Position numbers and translations under genes: made by a program. Below are positions 128 through 32,546 of a DNA stretch of 43,864 bases, in pieces. Source of the DNA: a virus; the IMG/VR virus record IMGVR_UViG_3300044620_000222, positions 1-43,864 of that record. One strand, 5' to 3'. Numbering within the stretch: position 1 is the first letter of the stretch; every line of letters starts with the position of its first letter. The notes beneath the pieces are model-generated. The model did not search any database, was not told where the DNA came from, and was given only the letters and a program-made list of their open reading frames with translations.

Positions 128-847
128 TGCGCCAGCGGTGACGGTACGGACAATAACAACACCGCTACCACCGTTAGCGTTCGTGGCTCCGCCACCTTGA
201 CCAGTATTCGATCCGCCAGCACCACTACTAAGGGCAGCGCCATAAGTAACAGCCGAACCAGTAATGCTTACCGACTTTCCAGCAGCCGACGCTCCACCCG
301 CAGCGCCCTTCCCAGAAACAAACGCACCCGTGCTACCAAGAACGGCAAGACCGCCAGTTCCTCCGCCGTTACCACCAGCGAACGCTGACCCTGCAAACTC
401 ACGTGGAGTAAAGTCCACGCTCTGAGCCTGACCGCCACCGCCAACTTCAAGTACGCCAGCAAGACTGCTCGTACCGCCTGCTGTTGAAGTTGCGTTAGTT
501 CCAGAGAAAGTTCCGCTACCTCCTGCCCCAACGGTTACGGATAGAGTTCCTCCAGACAGAAAGACGCTTGGGTAGTAAAAAACACCACCTCCGCCTCCGC
601 CGCATTGGGCAGAGTTATTGGTTCTAGCGCATCCTGCGCCACCAGCGACAACAAGCACATCAGCGATACCGCTATTAGCGACAGTCAAAGTACCGCTAGC
701 GGTAAACGTCTGCACCTGATACGTCACACCACCCGACGAATACGTCGAAGTAGTACCACCACTAACAGCAGCAAAACGCCCAGCAGCAGGAATCGTCCCC
801 GCCGTTGAAGAAGCGGAAGCGATCTGCGAATACCTCGTTACAGCCAT
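1..847 (-). CDS. Glycine-rich tail fibre protein (N-terminal part; continues at 43316)
   Basis: This is the start of a minus-strand gene that runs off position 1 and continues at 43737-43316 on the circle. Joined, it encodes about 422 residues from an ATG at 845-847, 13 bases after the stop of the upstream fibre gene. Two tandem glycine-rich modules are visible. Each opens with a strand such as QTFTASGTLTV, then DVLVVAGGAG, long Gly/Ser/Ala runs, VTVGAGGSG, SITGSAVTYG and a closing SGVVIVRT. This is the layout of the glycine-rich beta domains found in phage tail fibres and receptor-binding tips. No chaperone or catalytic domain is visible. A role at the distal tail in host-surface contact is inferred from composition and its place among other fibre genes. 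Homology to the genes at 861-2351 and 37509-38990 is evident by eye. Confidence 0.85.
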   Translation of the reverse strand, partial: MAVTRYSQIASASSTAGTIPAAGRFAAVSGGTTSTYSSGGVTYQVQTFTASGTLTVANSGIADVLVVAGGAGCARTNNSAQCGGGGGGVFYYPSVFLSGGTLSVTVGAGGSGTFSGTNATSTAGGTSSLAGVLEVGGGGQAQSVDFTPREFAGSAFAGGNGGGTGGLAVLGSTGAFVSGKGAAGGASAAGKSVSITGSAVTYGAALSSGAGGSNTGQGGGATNANGGSGVVIVRTVTAGAAPSGVVASGGTQTTYTGNGTNGVNGRNYVVQRFNANGTLTVT

Positions 848-2689: not shown

Positions 2690-3492
2690 TACATTCCTCC
2701 AAGCATCAGCGAAACAACAATCGGATCAGCAGCAGCAAGACCAGCGGGACCAGTTGGTCCAGTTGCTCCAGTAGGGCCAGTCACGGTAGAGGCAGCACCC
2801 GTAGGTCCAGTTGGTCCCGTGGGTCCAGTCGGGCCGTCAGCGCCAGCGGCACCAGTCGGGCCTGTAGGTCCAGCAACAGTCGAGTCGGCGCCAGACGGAC
2901 CAGTCGGCCCAATCGCGCCCTGAGGTCCAGTAGCACCGTCGGCTCCCGTTGGACCAGTCGGTCCAGTTGGTCCAGTCGCGCCGTCCTGCCCAACATAGCC
3001 AGGAGCGCCTGTCGGACCCGTAGGGCCAGGAACAGTAGACACGGGACCCGTAGGACCAGCGTCACCCTGAGGACCCGTAGCACCCGTAGGGCCAGTCACA
3101 CTAGAAGGAGCGCCAGTTGCACCCGTAGGACCAGTCGGACCCGTCGGACCCGTAGCACCAGCACTAGCGGCCTGCCCCTGAGGACCCGTAGCACCAGTAG
3201 GCCCAGTCGGACCCTGAATACCCTGATTACCCTGGGGACCCTGAGAACCAGTTGGACCCGTTACGCCAGCGTCACCCTTAGCGCCAGTAGGACCCGTAAC
3301 CGTAGACGCCTGCCCTTGGGGACCAGTCGGACCAGTTGGGCCAGTGCCACCCGTGGGGCCAGTCGGACCAGCAGCAATATTGTTGACAGCAGAGTTAACG
3401 GTAGAAATTGCCTCAATAATGAGGTTAGTGTCACCAGCGGGAGTGCCGTCGCCAGGAGTTTTATTGGGCGTAGGTAGCGTTAAGGTAGGCAT
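2689..3492 (-). CDS. Collagen-like fibre protein (Gly-Pro-Thr repeats)
   Basis: This gene encodes 267 residues starting at the ATG at 3490-3492, with AGGAG seven bases upstream. A TTG one codon earlier is less likely. Residues 1-40 form a short head ([19 protein letters not shown]) typical of phage fibre attachment segments. About residues 41-250 are nearly continuous G-X-Y triplets, mostly GPTGPTG with interruptions such as ASTV, QGQAAS and PGYVGQDG. The final ~17 residues are hydrophobic ([12 protein letters not shown]). Collagen-like stretches in phage tail proteins form trimeric triple-helical shafts, and the interruptions here could be flexible breaks. The gene sits at the head of the fibre cluster, so a shaft or side-fibre role is likely. 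The repetitive DNA makes it a hotspot for length variation. Confidence 0.88.
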
Positions 3493-5939: not shown

Positions 5940-6977
5940 TTAGACCAGCGTTGCCTGGGTCTTGATCTGGAGCAGAGCCTCTGCACGGAAGATCGAGTAC
6001 CCAACGAGGTGGTACCAGCCGACCGATGCGAAACGACGCAACTTATCGACCACGGGCGAAACGACCGTCTTCGGGTTAGCGCCGAAGCCAGGAGCGGTCG
6101 AGAACGCCTTGGCGAGTGCCTCAGCACCCATCAGGTAGCCCTGGCCCTGGTTCGTGAGGTGGTTGTTGACCACGAGGCGCACGCCTTCGTAGGTTCCAAC
6201 CTCACCCATGAACACGCTGTTGCCAGCGGCAGAAGTGCCACCCGAGTAGCCGACCATCCAGCGGAAGCCCGTGTCGGTAGTCTCCGACATGAGTTGCTGA
6301 GCCTGGTACGGGCTAATGACAGCAACGTAGTTGCCACCACGGAGGGGACGGACATTCGCTGCACGCAGAAGAGCAACACCCTGGCGAAGGATCGCACCCG
6401 AAAGCGGGGACGAGGTTGCGCCAATGGAGCCGATGGTGGCGGTTGAGCCGTCATCGTAGGTGATGCTGGTCTGATCGAGGGCGGTACGGCACAGGGTGTC
6501 AATTGACAGGCCTGCGTTGTAGCCCACGCGCTCTGCGATCAGCGGATCGAGCGAGATCATGCTCGTGCCACGGATTAGGGCGGTGTTGGTGACTGCCGTG
6601 CCGTACTCACGCATGGTCACGGTGAGTGCCTTGGAGGTGAGGGTCACGGAGTCAACGTCAAGGTTCTCAAGGAGCGGAGTGGTCTGCTCAGTGATGTCAT
6701 CGACGAAGGAGAAGCGAACCGAACCGCCACGATGGGTGGTGTTGGTTGCGCGAACCGTTGCGAACTGATCGAAAATAAGTTCGGGACGCAGCGACGGGTA
6801 GACCGCCAGGTCGTATGCCTTGGTAACAAACTGCGAACCAAGGGTGATATCGACAATCGGGGCGGGGGCATTGATAGAAAGCGGGCCAGCAGCGGTAACG
6901 ATCTCACCAGGTGAGTACATCGGAGCCGTTGCGGGACCATTCTGATTAGCACCAGGAGTGCCAGTACCAGCAGGCAT
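5940..6977 (-). CDS. Major capsid protein, N4-gp56 family
   Basis: A 345-residue protein forms the icosahedral shell. The family pattern is visible throughout: AYDLAVYPSLRPELIFDQFA near residue 55, RGGSVRFSFVDDI, TPLLENLDVDSVTLTS, VTMREYGTAVTNTALIR, a conserved NAGLSIDTLCR helix and a C-terminal RFASVGWYHLVGYSIFR. These are hallmarks of the N4-gp56 family of HK97-fold capsid proteins, and the length is typical. The start has AAAGGAAC a few bases upstream, a strong site in keeping with very high expression. The scaffold gene lies 11 bases upstream and a hairpin lies downstream. Assignment is confident. Confidence 0.95.
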   Translation of the reverse strand: MPAGTGTPGANQNGPATAPMYSPGEIVTAAGPLSINAPAPIVDITLGSQFVTKAYDLAVYPSLRPELIFDQFATVRATNTTHRGGSVRFSFVDDITEQTTPLLENLDVDSVTLTSKALTVTMREYGTAVTNTALIRGTSMISLDPLIAERVGYNAGLSIDTLCRTALDQTSITYDDGSTATIGSIGATSSPLSGAILRQGVALLRAANVRPLRGGNYVAVISPYQAQQLMSETTDTGFRWMVGYSGGTSAAGNSVFMGEVGTYEGVRLVVNNHLTNQGQGYLMGAEALAKAFSTAPGFGANPKTVVSPVVDKLRRFASVGWYHLVGYSIFRAEALLQIKTQATLV

Positions 6978-10486: not shown

Positions 10487-13400
10487 TTGTTGCTCCAATA
10501 TCGTTGAAGGTTGTACCAATTTCAACAGGGGTGTCATCGCCGTTCAAGTACCTGTTAGCGATACCAGCCCAACCAATATCCCTAGAGATTAGATCCTGCC
10601 TAAACCCATCCCACTCTTCCTTGAGAGCAGCATTGGCGTCATTCTCTAGAGAAACACCAGACTCCTTAACCATCTGAATCAAACGATTACGAACCTCGAT
10701 GTAGTCAGCCGCAAACTGCCAAGTCTTATTATCCGCCTTATCGGACATAAACTTCTCGTTACGCAACGCTTGAGTAATCGTGTTTACAGCGGAGTAAGTC
10801 TTGCTAGAGCCCGTGCTCTGGTAGTCAACAGCCCAACCTGCGTACAGCGGGTTACTAAGCATGTTGTCGATGAACTCCTTGCGGTACTGATTCAAGTCCT
10901 CAGCGCCCTTAACGCGGTAAGACTTCAAGCCACGCTGCTGAAGGAGGGCATCAATCTGACCCTTAAACTTGATGTACTCAACCCAGCCAGCCTGACGCTG
11001 GGTTTCAGCCATTGACTCAGCGCCCGTATTGATCTCCCGCCACCTACGGCTAGTGCCAGGGATGTTCTCGTTAGTAAGCCACTGGTAAGCGTTAACGTCG
11101 TAGGCGCTTTCCTTGGGGTCGCCATTGACCAGGATTCCAAGAACATCTAAGTCATCGCCAAGAGTCGGAGTCAGATTCCGAATTAGATCAGCATTGTTCT
11201 TAATGTTCCGAACGGTGTCCGTGTTGATAGTCGTGCCACCGACATTCTCCGTCGTGGCCGTGTCAGCCAGCGCCAGCATCTCGTTACCGAAAGTCTGTGA
11301 GAACTTCATCGGCCCCTCAAGGCCATAAACCTGGTCGTATGTCTTCTGAATGTCCATCAGAGGGGCAAGCGGAGAATCATAGTTGGGCGGGGTGAAAGCA
11401 AACATGTTGCCCAACATGCGAAGCAGGAACATGCCGTTAGTGCGGCTAGTGATCTCAGCAGCGGTAGCAGGCTCTTCTCGCTCACCCGCACGCCAGAGAA
11501 GGTCCTGGGTGCGTGCCTGAAGGCCGTACTGGTAGCCGTACTGCTTTGATCCGTCCTTCTGCATGTACTGGATAAACTTGTTAAATACAGGAGGAGTTAC
11601 CTTGTCATAAGACCAAGCCTCAGTAGAGATAGAAGACTCTTCACCAAAGGTGTACTTCTTCATCCCGCCCCATAGAGCCTCAGCGTCCTTCTTGCCAAGG
11701 ATATTGACCATCAGAGAAGGAGCCTCAACCCCAACCCCAAACAGTCCCTTCTTCATAATCTCACTCGCTGCAACTTGAGCAAGAGGGGCAGGGCGAGGGA
11801 CAAAAGCAAAGCCAGACTCAGGGAAGATAACGTTCAGCGAAGCCTTATTGATGGTCATGTTTTTCATGCCAGCGATACCGAAGAAATCCTCAACACCGTC
11901 AGGGATTAGATCGTGAGGCAGCGGGATAATGAGGTTTCCGTTTTTGTCCTCCCAGCCTACCTTTGAGGGCGCAGACCAGAGGAGCAGCAGCATTCCAGGC
12001 AGGGCAGGGTCACGGCGCACAAGACGGCCCACAGAGGTTACAGAGTTCTGTGTAGCCGAAATAAACGGGGTAATCAACTCACCATACTTACCAAGGTTGG
12101 TACGGCGGTCAATCGTGTACAGGAAGTCTTTGGTGTCCTTCAAAGCGCGACGGTGAGCCTGCTTCTCAATAGCGTCAAGGACCCTGATTGGAATCTCAGT
12201 TTCCTTGTCAAACTGCTTATTTACGATGTTTATCAGTTCATCCCTAGTCGCTACATAGCGAGCAGAGTAGAAAGGCGCTCGCACAAGAGCGTCTTCAGGC
12301 ATTGTTCCAATAAACTGAAAAGCCTTTTGAGTAATGGTCCGATACGAATCCATAGTGGTTTTAAAGCCGTTAACAACATCCTTATAGCCAACTACGTTTG
12401 CTAGGCGCGGGTCACCCGTAAGAATTTTCTTAAGTTCGTCTGCCTTAGGAGCGCGACTTTCAAGAATCTTCCACACGCTCCTATTACCAGCAGTAATAGT
12501 CTCAAGGCCCAAACGGACTTCTTTAACAAAGTCAGACGCGCTATCAATGTTGTCACCGATACGTGGACCAGCACCCGCCCCTTCCTTTGACGCTTCCCAA
12601 GCCGCGTCAAGGCTGTCACGCACCTTCTGGCCCTCAGGGTCACGGAGAAGCCAAAGAGCAATCTGCTCATCCGAAGAACCGCGAACAATCATCTTTCCCA
12701 TCGGGTCTTGCGCATACTGACGAAGCATTGACTCCATGCCAGCCCAGTACCTATCTCCCTGATCGGGAGACACATCCACATAGTTCTCAATCTTCTTCCG
12801 ATAAATGATGGATTCAGATAGTTGCAAACGAGCCGACAAAGTTGCTTTAACAGTGTTGTCAGACGACATGTTGAGGTGCGCGATATCGCGGTAGCGTGGG
12901 TTGCTAAATGCACTATTAAGGACAACGCCACCCACAACGACGCGGCTTCCGTTATCTGCAATCCTTCTTGAGCCAGCCTGATTAGCAAACTCTGTAAGAG
13001 CAAATGAATCGTCCCGCTCAAGGGCAATCATCTTTGTCTTGTTCGACTGCATGACGTTTTCTAGGAAGTCAATATGGGCCTGCTCGTCTACAGATACCTT
13101 GGGGCCAAGGCTTGCCTTAACGTCATCAAGAAATTCTTTCTCTGCCCTGATCTGACCTTCAAGGGCTGCAATTTGCTTATCGCGCCATTTCTGCAACTTA
13201 GTACTATTAAGAGCAGGGGGAATGGGGCGACCGCCAAACTTCTCAATGTCCTTGTTTATAGTTCCAAGGCGAGACTTAATGGTCGCTAACTCCGCGTCAA
13301 TCTCTGCGGCGTTCTTGTAGACCTTGCCCGTAACGGGATCGGTAAAAGACTTAGGGGTCCGAGCCTTGGCTTCAGTAGCACCTCTAGCAATTTCAACCAA

Positions 13401-27191: not shown

Positions 27192-27537
27192 AGAACCTAC
27201 ATGGGAGCGCCTGATCTCTAGGTTCATGGTTGCCAAAGGCATACCAATGTTCAAGTTTGATGGTGGCTCCAGGCGATTCATCGGTATCAAAGGCTTCTCT
27301 TTCGTTCGCGTAACACCGCGCTTAGAAGGTGGATGGGCTGAACTCCCGTTCTACTTCAAGCGCTATGAGAGGGATAGAAGTCAAGGAAGTCCTCACCCGA
27401 CGGTGATGTTCCTTACCAGCAAGAACAACGGCCCTAACGTGGACGATACTTTCGTCCTCATGCGGCTGGAACCTTATTCAGAAATGCTCAAGGCTCTCGT
27501 TGAGAGCGACCCCGCTAGGTATTTAGGAGAAGACTAA
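27151..27537 (+). CDS. Early hypothetical protein
   Basis: Up to 128 residues. The start is uncertain: GTG 27151 lies behind AAGGAG at long spacing, while TTG 27178 has GGAG at better spacing and would give 119 residues. The product looks alpha/beta with basic aromatic segments (MFKFDGGSRRFIGIKGFSF, FKRYERDRSQ). It is coupled to SSB by TAATG, so it is co-translated with a replication protein and may work in DNA metabolism. No family is recognised. Confidence 0.68.
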   Translation: MQRFTCGESLKVPKEPTWERLISRFMVAKGIPMFKFDGGSRRFIGIKGFSFVRVTPRLEGGWAELPFYFKRYERDRSQGSPHPTVMFLTSKNNGPNVDDTFVLMRLEPYSEMLKALVESDPARYLGED

Positions 27538-27974
27538 TGGCACTGTCACAGATCGCTGGAGAGTACGGGATCGTTGCTGAACCCGACTTCCGACTGAGCG
27601 ACAAGGGAAACGCATGGATCAAGTTGCGTGGCAAGGCACAGGACCGTGTGCGTGACGCTAATGGGAACTGGGGTGATGGTGACCCGTGCTTCGTCAACAT
27701 CATGGTTTCTGGTAAGCCAGCCGAACACCTGTTCGAATCAGTCACCAAGGGCGACAGCGTTATCGTCGTTGGCAAACTCAAGCAGCGCGAGTGGACCAAC
27801 AAGGAAGGCGTCAAGCAGACAGACACCTACATTGATGCTGATAGCATCGGCGTCAGCGTTCGATGGAATCCCGCTAAGACCCCACGCACTGCCGAATTGA
27901 GCGGCGGCGGTGGCGTGACCGTGGCGGCATCAATGCTCGGGGCAACTGAAGTATCTTCTGAAGCCCCGTTCTAA
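27537..27974 (+). CDS. ssb: Single-stranded DNA-binding protein
   Basis: A 145-residue OB-fold protein that coats ssDNA during replication and recombination. Visible are the N-terminal strand (QIAGEYGIVAEPDFRLSDKG), the core DPCFVNIMVSGKPAEHL, the GDSVIVVGKLKQREWTNKEG hairpin typical of bacterial SSB, and DADSIGVSVRW. A short Gly-rich linker and a tail ending EVSSEAPF follow, a likely partner-binding tip analogous to the DDDIPF tail of bacterial SSB. It is the last gene before two hairpins and the structured RNA region. Confidence 0.92.
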   Translation: MALSQIAGEYGIVAEPDFRLSDKGNAWIKLRGKAQDRVRDANGNWGDGDPCFVNIMVSGKPAEHLFESVTKGDSVIVVGKLKQREWTNKEGVKQTDTYIDADSIGVSVRWNPAKTPRTAELSGGGGVTVAASMLGATEVSSEAPF

Positions 27975-27983
27975 ATGGGAAGA

Positions 27984-28011
27984 CCCCCTCACTCTTGACA
28001 GAGTGGGGGGG
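27984..28011 (+). terminator. Hairpin after ssb
   Basis: CCCCCTCACTC pairs with GAGTGGGGGGG (one G-U) around a TTGACA loop, an 11-bp stem 10 bases after the ssb stop. There is no T tract, so termination may be partial. The loop is itself a consensus -35 box for the promoter at 27995. Confidence 0.7.
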
Positions 28012-28023
28012 AATCCCTAGATT
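27995..28023 (+). promoter_or_regulatory. Candidate promoter for the structured RNA
   Basis: Consensus TTGACA (27995-28000), exactly 17 bases, then TAGATT (28018-28023, 4 of 6 matches). It lacks the TAAG extension of the early promoters. Transcription would begin near 28030, immediately before the first RNA hairpin. The -35 lies in the loop of the ssb hairpin, so chance cannot be excluded. Confidence 0.5.
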
Positions 28024-28029
28024 GTACCT

Positions 28030-28136
28030 ACTGCATCAGTTGGCACTGATCGGTAAGCGTGACCGCAGGAAACGGCTGCGATAGAGAAAATCTATCAAAC
28101 GTGGCTCCTGCGTACAAGCAGGGGCCATTACTTTTT
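28030..28136 (+). ncRNA. Candidate small RNA with intrinsic terminator
   Basis: No gene fits here, but the plus strand is almost fully paired. ATCAGT-TGGC-ACTGAT is at 28035-28050. CGCAG-GAAACGG-CTGCG is at 28064-28080. GATAGA-GAAAA-TCTATC is at 28080-28096. A 10-bp terminal stem TGGCTCCTGC/GCAGGGGCCA (28102-28127) is followed by TTACTTTTT, a good Rho-independent terminator. A candidate promoter with consensus -35 sits just upstream. Together they describe a ~107-nt independent RNA. I do not recognise it as a known RNA family. Its role is unknown. Confidence 0.6.
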
Positions 28137-28149
28137 GGCCCTGAACATG

Positions 28150-28291
28150 GGTAGGCAAAGGCGCGGCAGGTCGCAGAAGGGACCACCGACCCCATAACCC
28201 AGGGATAACCTCAGGCCAAGAGCAGGCTGGTAACCGCTCTCTGAGGCACAAAGTTGAAAGCCCGCGAAATTCTTGATCGCGCCTACCTACC
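28150..28291 (+). ncRNA. Structured RNA element closed by long-range helix
   Basis: GGTAGG-caaa-GGCGCG (28150-28165) pairs with CGCGCC-ta-CCTACC (28278-28291), a 12-bp closing helix with a small internal loop. Inside lie GGTCG/CGACC (28069-equivalent positions 28169-28191) and a long hairpin CCTCAG-gcca-AGAGC-a-GG/CC-GCTCT-CTGAGG (28209-28246). The ~140-nt domain lies 48 bases before the start at 28339. It could be a riboswitch-like leader of that gene or the distal part of a longer RNA with the preceding element. I could not match it to tmRNA, RNase P, 6S or group I intron cores. Confidence 0.6.
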
Positions 28292-28338
28292 TGAACTATG
28301 TCCGAAACGAACACCAAAGCCGTTGGAGGCTATCGAAA

Positions 28339-28734
28339 ATGTCTGTCAGCAGTTATACAAATAATTTTATGAGGGCGCTGCCTGCGGCCCTTCGTCCCAA
28401 CCCATTCAACATCGACGAGTACGTCATGCAGGCTGTTGAGAAAGGCTGGGAGACAGACGCGCTCGCTAAGGCGTGCTACCTGCACGAGCGCAACCCGAAC
28501 CCTGGGTTCATCGTCACTAACCTCAAGAATCTCTGCCTGCACGGACCTAAGACAGAGACAGTTCGCAAGGGATGGGACTACGGCCACATCAAATGCGGCG
28601 ACCTCTACCATCCCAGCGAGTGCGAGATTTGCCGCTGCGTCCCTGGAGAAGTCACCCACCACATACCTCAGGCGATCAAGCCTGAGCAGAGAGCCGCCAT
28701 GCGCGGCATGTTTAAGGAGGTTCCAGTTGATTGA
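28339..28734 (+). CDS. Hypothetical protein with N-terminal HTH-like and C-terminal zinc motif
   Basis: A start at ATG 28339 with GGAGG nine bases upstream gives 131 residues. The N-terminal half (NPFNIDEYVMQAVEKGWETD, ALAKACYLHERNPNPGFIV) is helical and HTH-like. The C-terminal half has KCGDLYHPSECEICRC, a Cys-rich finger. HTH plus zinc finger resembles small replication or regulatory proteins of actinophages, but the identity is unknown. Its leader contains the structured RNA described above, so its expression may be RNA-controlled. Confidence 0.72.
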   Translation: MSVSSYTNNFMRALPAALRPNPFNIDEYVMQAVEKGWETDALAKACYLHERNPNPGFIVTNLKNLCLHGPKTETVRKGWDYGHIKCGDLYHPSECEICRCVPGEVTHHIPQAIKPEQRAAMRGMFKEVPVD

Positions 28735-32495: not shown

Positions 32496-32507
32496 CATAC
32501 ACAATCT

Positions 32508-32546
32508 GGTGGGGGGAGGGTTTCTCCTTGTTCCCCTCTCCCCACC
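32508..32546 (+). terminator. Hairpin after the exonuclease gene
   Basis: GGTGGGGGGAGGG pairs with CCCTCTCCCCACC (one G-U), a 13-bp stem around a 13-base T-rich loop, 13 bases after the exonuclease stop. No T run follows, so it may attenuate rather than end transcription. The next gene starts 19 bases downstream. Confidence 0.65.

Follow-up and report, generated by a model that had tools for sequence, protein, structure and literature searches.

A candidate non-coding RNA locus downstream of ssb in an uncultured phage of actinobacterial type

Overview

In an uncultured actinobacterial-type phage, the gap that follows the ssb gene is probably transcribed into non-coding RNA, one product being a short terminated transcript. 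In its fuller form, to which we assign a probability of about one half, the reading is that the gap is a non-coding RNA locus comprising a terminated small RNA and a structured second RNA or leader, in a position that is taken by another RNA in relatives. The window, that is, the whole stretch of DNA analysed, is the entire virus record of 43,864 bases, and most of its nearest annotated relatives, as judged by ssb, terminase and exonuclease, are phages of actinobacteria. The RNA found in the relatives, here called R1, is a real RNA, proven by covariation, and apparently an undescribed structured RNA conserved in several related phages. The locus in the window gains credibility through these relatives and is presented as an orphan candidate phage small-RNA locus.

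Organisation of the post-ssb gap

Between ssb and a downstream gene, here called X, the gap contains, in this order, a GC-rich palindrome, a promoter-like sequence, a first folded domain with a terminator, a second folded domain and the ribosome-binding site of X (Table 1). An earlier note on this DNA had proposed that no gene fits the gap, which it put at 360 bases, and that the second domain matches no known RNA family. Both proposals hold, with the exact length being 364 bases: no plus-strand open reading frame fits the gap and its two minus-strand frames (55 and 93 aa) have no PHROG match, which rules out a hidden gene, while in Rfam 15 no family reaches its gathering score in the window and nothing credible appears up to E=10. 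The top match in the window is a chance-level one to RsaJ, which scores 17.7 of 100 bits and falls on the post-ssb palindrome; with Rfam scores never at a useful level, a known RNA or riboswitch is ruled out. ARAGORN predicts no tRNA or tmRNA in the window, BLAST of the gap against cultured phages gives no match, and nothing points specifically to the leader riboswitch or the packaged RNA that the note had also entertained.

Table 1. Positions of the features discussed, in the window and in related phages (L numbers)
Sequence	Feature	Position	Strand	Remarks
Window	ssb gene	27537..27974	+	upstream gap boundary; matches SSB families in Pfam and PHROGs
Window	post-ssb gap	27975..28338		from ssb stop (27974) to gene X start (28339)
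Window	GC-rich palindrome	27981..28010	.	directly 3' of ssb, TTGACA at centre
Window	promoter-like TTGACA-17-TAGATT	27995..28023	+	TTGACA 27995-28000, TAGATT 28018-28023; G-run in spacer; same plan in L015, L017, L028
Window	domain 1, candidate small RNA	28026..28136	+	hairpins 28029-28055, 28065-28079, 28080-28096, then terminator; putative start near 28030
Window	intrinsic terminator	28101..28136	+	11-bp stem (28101-28128) with 6-nt loop, then TACTTTTT
Window	domain 2, second folded stretch	28140..28300	+	fold z about -3; no homologue found
Window	domain 2 closing helix			28149-28155/28286-28292 (7 bp), then 28159-28166/28277-28284 (8 bp); 4 further pairs, 28167-28170/28272-28275
Window	domain 2 enclosed hairpin	28209..28247		13 bp, interrupted
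Window	gene X, 131 aa	28339..28734	+	GGAGG ribosome-binding site at about 28326-28330
Window	hairpin after exonuclease gene	32506..32546		non-coding
L015	R1	554..672		post-ssb site
L017	R1	168..285		post-ssb site
L028	R1	2811..2928		post-ssb site
L029	R1	372..490	minus	
L030	R1	5948..6065	minus	
L035, L037, L041, L043	R1			further members
L050	R1	12684..12795		weaker
L039	R1, partial	176..213		hairpin 2 only
L060 (Rizwana)	Arthrobacter phage gap	5455..5700		
L061 (SilentRX)	Arthrobacter phage gap	5547..5800		
L063	Arthrobacter phage gap	625..889		
L064	Arthrobacter phage gap	637..887		
L065	Arthrobacter phage gap	974..1234		
L066	Arthrobacter phage gap	2895..3162		

The promoter-like sequence, with the exact 17-bp spacing that had been noted for it, carries its -35 element in the middle of the palindrome. 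A TTGACA-N15-19-TANNNT motif occurs once in the window against 1.33 occurrences expected by chance, so its weight comes only from its place and from its recurrence in relatives. Related loci were collected through the downstream exonuclease gene (25 loci); in nine distinct ones the sequence spans the post-ssb gap or the corresponding place. The plan of TTGAC[AT], exactly 17 bases with a G-run and a -10 element, whose base rate is 0.11 per kb, has a single occurrence in each of four post-ssb gaps, those of the window, L015, L017 and L028, and is missing from the six gaps of L011, L013, L014, L016, L023 and L025, which hold no structured RNA; among the nine relatives its carriers are thus exactly the three with a structured RNA. 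L017 and L028 are related at this site, so the four occurrences are not four independent events.

Folding alone names no strand, since the minus strand of the gap folds about as well as the plus strand (-106.1 vs -106.7 kcal/mol). Allowing for GC content, 275-nt stretches whose first base lies within 27826-27976 rank near the top of the record for folding, to which the post-ssb palindrome contributes. The equal folding of both strands, together with a GC-rich palindrome of different sequence each time after ssb (or ssb and one small open reading frame) in all nine relatives, would also suit a DNA element, with the palindromes serving as replication origin, operator or transcription boundary and the RNA folds arising as a by-product. 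An origin-like element is made possible by cultured Arthrobacter phages in which an unannotated gap of about 250 nt precedes an HTH or RepA-like initiator gene. However, the iterons or repeats beside an initiator gene that mark a replication origin are absent at 27900-28420, where there are no direct repeats of at least 10 bases, and no recognisable initiator gene adjoins the gap in the window, the next gene, X, being without a family. Moreover, the promoter and terminator have a fixed orientation, and R1 at the same site shows compensation of the RNA type. A DNA element is judged quite unlikely.

Gene X itself matches nothing in PHROG or Pfam and has homologues only in L017 (61%) and L015 (57%). 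It has an FNIDEYVMQA core and a Cys/His-rich C-terminal part, and occupies the place held by HTH/RepA-like and DnaB-like genes in several relatives.

A terminated unit followed by a second fold

Domain 1 folds at -44.6 kcal/mol with a z-score of -4.5, a value as low as which none of 200 shuffles attained and which lies below those of all 274 tiles of 160 nt covering the window (lowest tile -3.8). Its terminator is the strongest terminator-like site in the 13.3 kb early region, where such sites show no clear excess over shuffles. Taken together, the z-score, the tile comparison and the terminator establish domain 1 as a solid structured and delimited unit. The three hairpins described in the earlier note are present, and its 10-bp terminator stem is corrected to 11 bp; its suggestion of a candidate stand-alone transcript is strengthened by a self-contained unit running from promoter to terminator. 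A promoter and an intrinsic terminator bounding a short non-coding stretch, the arrangement by which a terminated phage small RNA is recognised, are found here at the level of sequence. Phage small RNAs that possess a promoter and an intrinsic terminator of their own form a general class, which domain 1 resembles in having a promoter-like sequence, compact hairpins and a terminator within about 140 bases; the candidate matches no known RNA.

Domain 2 folds at -57.9 kcal/mol, with z-scores of -3.0 and -2.8 in two computations. Of the architecture claimed for it, the enclosed 13-bp bulged hairpin was recovered, and the 12-bp closing helix proved to exceed 12 pairs and to be broken by a 3x1 loop. 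The further claim that domain 2 is a separate RNA did not advance beyond a modest z-score, of a level reached by about 3% of arbitrary tiles of the window, so comparative evidence is needed for this domain. That frequency, the lack of a detected homologue and the initial choice of the gap as best-looking are what would be expected if only the promoter and terminator were functional and domain 2 were a GC-rich spacer folding by chance. Such a chance fold is nevertheless quite unlikely, as domain 1 exceeds all tiles and relatives with the same promoter fill the site with a covariation-proven RNA.

A different possibility is that the domain 1 terminator is conditional, acting as a transcription attenuator, with the whole region forming a regulated leader for X and for the early genes behind it, and domain 2 a leader fold without independent life. 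The gap and X do lie inside a same-strand early operon, and the region ends just before the X ribosome-binding site. Attenuation is possible because both terminator arms have competitors, the 5' arm being able to pair with an upstream GCAGGA and the 3' arm with a downstream GGCCC, and the nascent chain is predicted to traverse the competing forms. Yet the freshly made terminator is favoured over its competitor by about 9 kcal/mol, and the competitor wins by just 2-4 kcal/mol, after the downstream GGCCC has been made. Such a competitor is not predicted in L015, and the RNA that relatives carry at the site precedes differing genes (X or a DnaB-like gene). An attenuator is judged unlikely.

A covarying RNA at the same site in relatives

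R1 is an RNA of about 118 nt common to the post-ssb gaps of L015, L017 and L028, where it follows the promoter and aligns far above shuffles. A pattern scan for its best conserved loop added L029, L030, L035, L037, L041 and L043, and the more distant L050 and L039; the membership is small, and L029-L043 are near copies of one another. The RNA consists of two hairpins with nearly invariant loops and stems that change by compensation: of the 15 pairs in the two hairpins, 9 show double-sided changes, and pairing is kept in 98.9% of cells, whereas shuffles reach 77% and slid controls 29-40%; the full R1 model behaves in the same way. In a covariance-model search of 320 kb the members scored 101-133 bits, L050 40 bits and the L039 hairpin 34 bits. 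Rfam 15 has no family for R1, and an exact pattern search found its exact hairpin motif nowhere in the genome collection.

The genomic contexts of R1 vary. It lies before X in L015 and L017 and before a DnaB-like gene in L028; in L029, L030 and L041 it follows an unrelated gene close to a terminase gene; and in L050 and L039 it stands behind promoter-like sequences of its own, as read by eye. Since it sits beside differing genes, R1 has no fixed downstream partner, a pattern that favours action in trans.

The window is not itself an R1 member: the covariance model has no match in the whole window, its best score with filters off being 2.1 bits in the gap, and the R1 loop ATG[AC]CGGAGGNAGCA on a compensated stem is absent from the window with up to 3 mismatches. 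R1 and the window's locus are alike in their site after ssb and (in L015 and L017) before X, in their promoter plan, and in being non-coding and absent from Rfam, and the length of R1 is close to that of domain 2, but they share no sequence or model match, and the two conserved loops of R1 are absent from the window. L015 follows the same plan: a palindrome and a promoter come first, then about 120 nt with a GC-rich stem and TTTTTT at their end, and finally a second RNA and X. L017 and L028 have no terminated first domain. Single-sequence models of the window's own two domains, R2 and R3, recovered only the window; across about 30 relatives the one other hit was weak and partial, between R2 and a hairpin of L061 (E 0.09). 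Pairwise alignment of the window with the relatives' gaps did not rise above shuffles after allowing for 30 comparisons, and scans for X and ssb in viral contigs, and for X in genomes, brought nothing new. The support that the relatives lend to the window is accordingly positional, consisting of the same site, the same promoter type and the plan shared with L015.

Proposed mode of action

In the favoured reading of a non-coding RNA locus, a host sigma-A-type promoter lying within the post-ssb palindrome would initiate transcription near 28030; with the intrinsic terminator ending it near 28136, the product would be a stand-alone small RNA of about 107 nt. RNA arising by read-through or from upstream would carry domain 2, which ends just before the X ribosome-binding site and could act as a structured leader or, once processed, independently. 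In relatives with the same promoter the site holds a different RNA, R1, which is found next to unrelated genes as well; this favours trans-acting RNAs that can take one another's place here. As a guess, they might target a host protein or the mRNAs of host or phage at an early stage of infection. The sequence elements, the folds, the recurring promoter and the R1 covariation are directly observed, whereas promoter activity, the stability of domain 1 as a small RNA, the role of domain 2 as second RNA or leader, and action in trans are inferred.

One speculative extension concerns hairpin 2 of R1, CCAG-NAUG[AC]C-GGAG-GNAGCA-CUGG, which, on visual inspection, can be matched to the apex of SRP RNA helix 8. 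Compared by eye with E. coli ffs, it is similar in its GGAG/GGAA tetraloop region followed by AGCA and in its symmetric internal loop, but has a shorter apical stem and a different 5' strand; this helix-8-like feature belongs to R1 and was not seen in the window. R1 as an SRP RNA is ruled out, since RF00169 matches none of the seven records at E<=10 while it does match 13 of 14 control genomes. None of the papers searched brings SRP RNA together with the terms "phage-encoded" and "bacteriophage genome"; structured RNAs in general have been surveyed (PMC2864571). It would be a long shot that the post-ssb site is a slot for exchangeable phage RNAs binding a component of a host ribonucleoprotein, with R1 hairpin 2 imitating the helix 8 tip as an Ffh decoy and the window's domains being a functional replacement of unrelated sequence.

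Related non-coding features

In cultured Arthrobacter phages, the unannotated gap of about 250 nt lies between ssb with a small open reading frame and the HTH or RepA-like gene, and is a candidate origin or leader; among the phages with such a gap (Table 1) are Rizwana, SilentRX, BruhMoment, Tank, Ranunculus and MellowYellow. The two that were folded are, like the window's, strongly structured and begin with GC-rich hairpins, whereas the extra open reading frame between ssb and gap and the HTH or RepA-like gene that comes next set these phages apart from the window. The R1, R2 and R3 models have no convincing match in the Arthrobacter phage gaps.

A separate conserved non-coding hairpin follows the exonuclease gene of the window, and most of 20 phages examined have its counterpart there (for example L004, L005, L008, L011, L013, L016 and L028). 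Its stem of 11-16 bp varies in sequence between phages. The loop, about UUUCUCYCCUKGUUUC, is pyrimidine-rich and anti-Shine-Dalgarno-like; in the window, L004, L011 and L014 it is able to base-pair with the ribosome-binding site of the following gene over 7-8 bases, and over fewer in others. The element looks like a translation-control hairpin.

Significance

Should the locus prove real, it would add an orphan to the phage small RNAs. More solid is R1, a covarying RNA of uncultured phages that is missing from Rfam 15 and whose two nearly invariant loops suggest a binding partner to seek. A site at which unrelated RNAs swap behind one promoter type would, in turn, offer a direct route to the uses that phages make of small RNAs.
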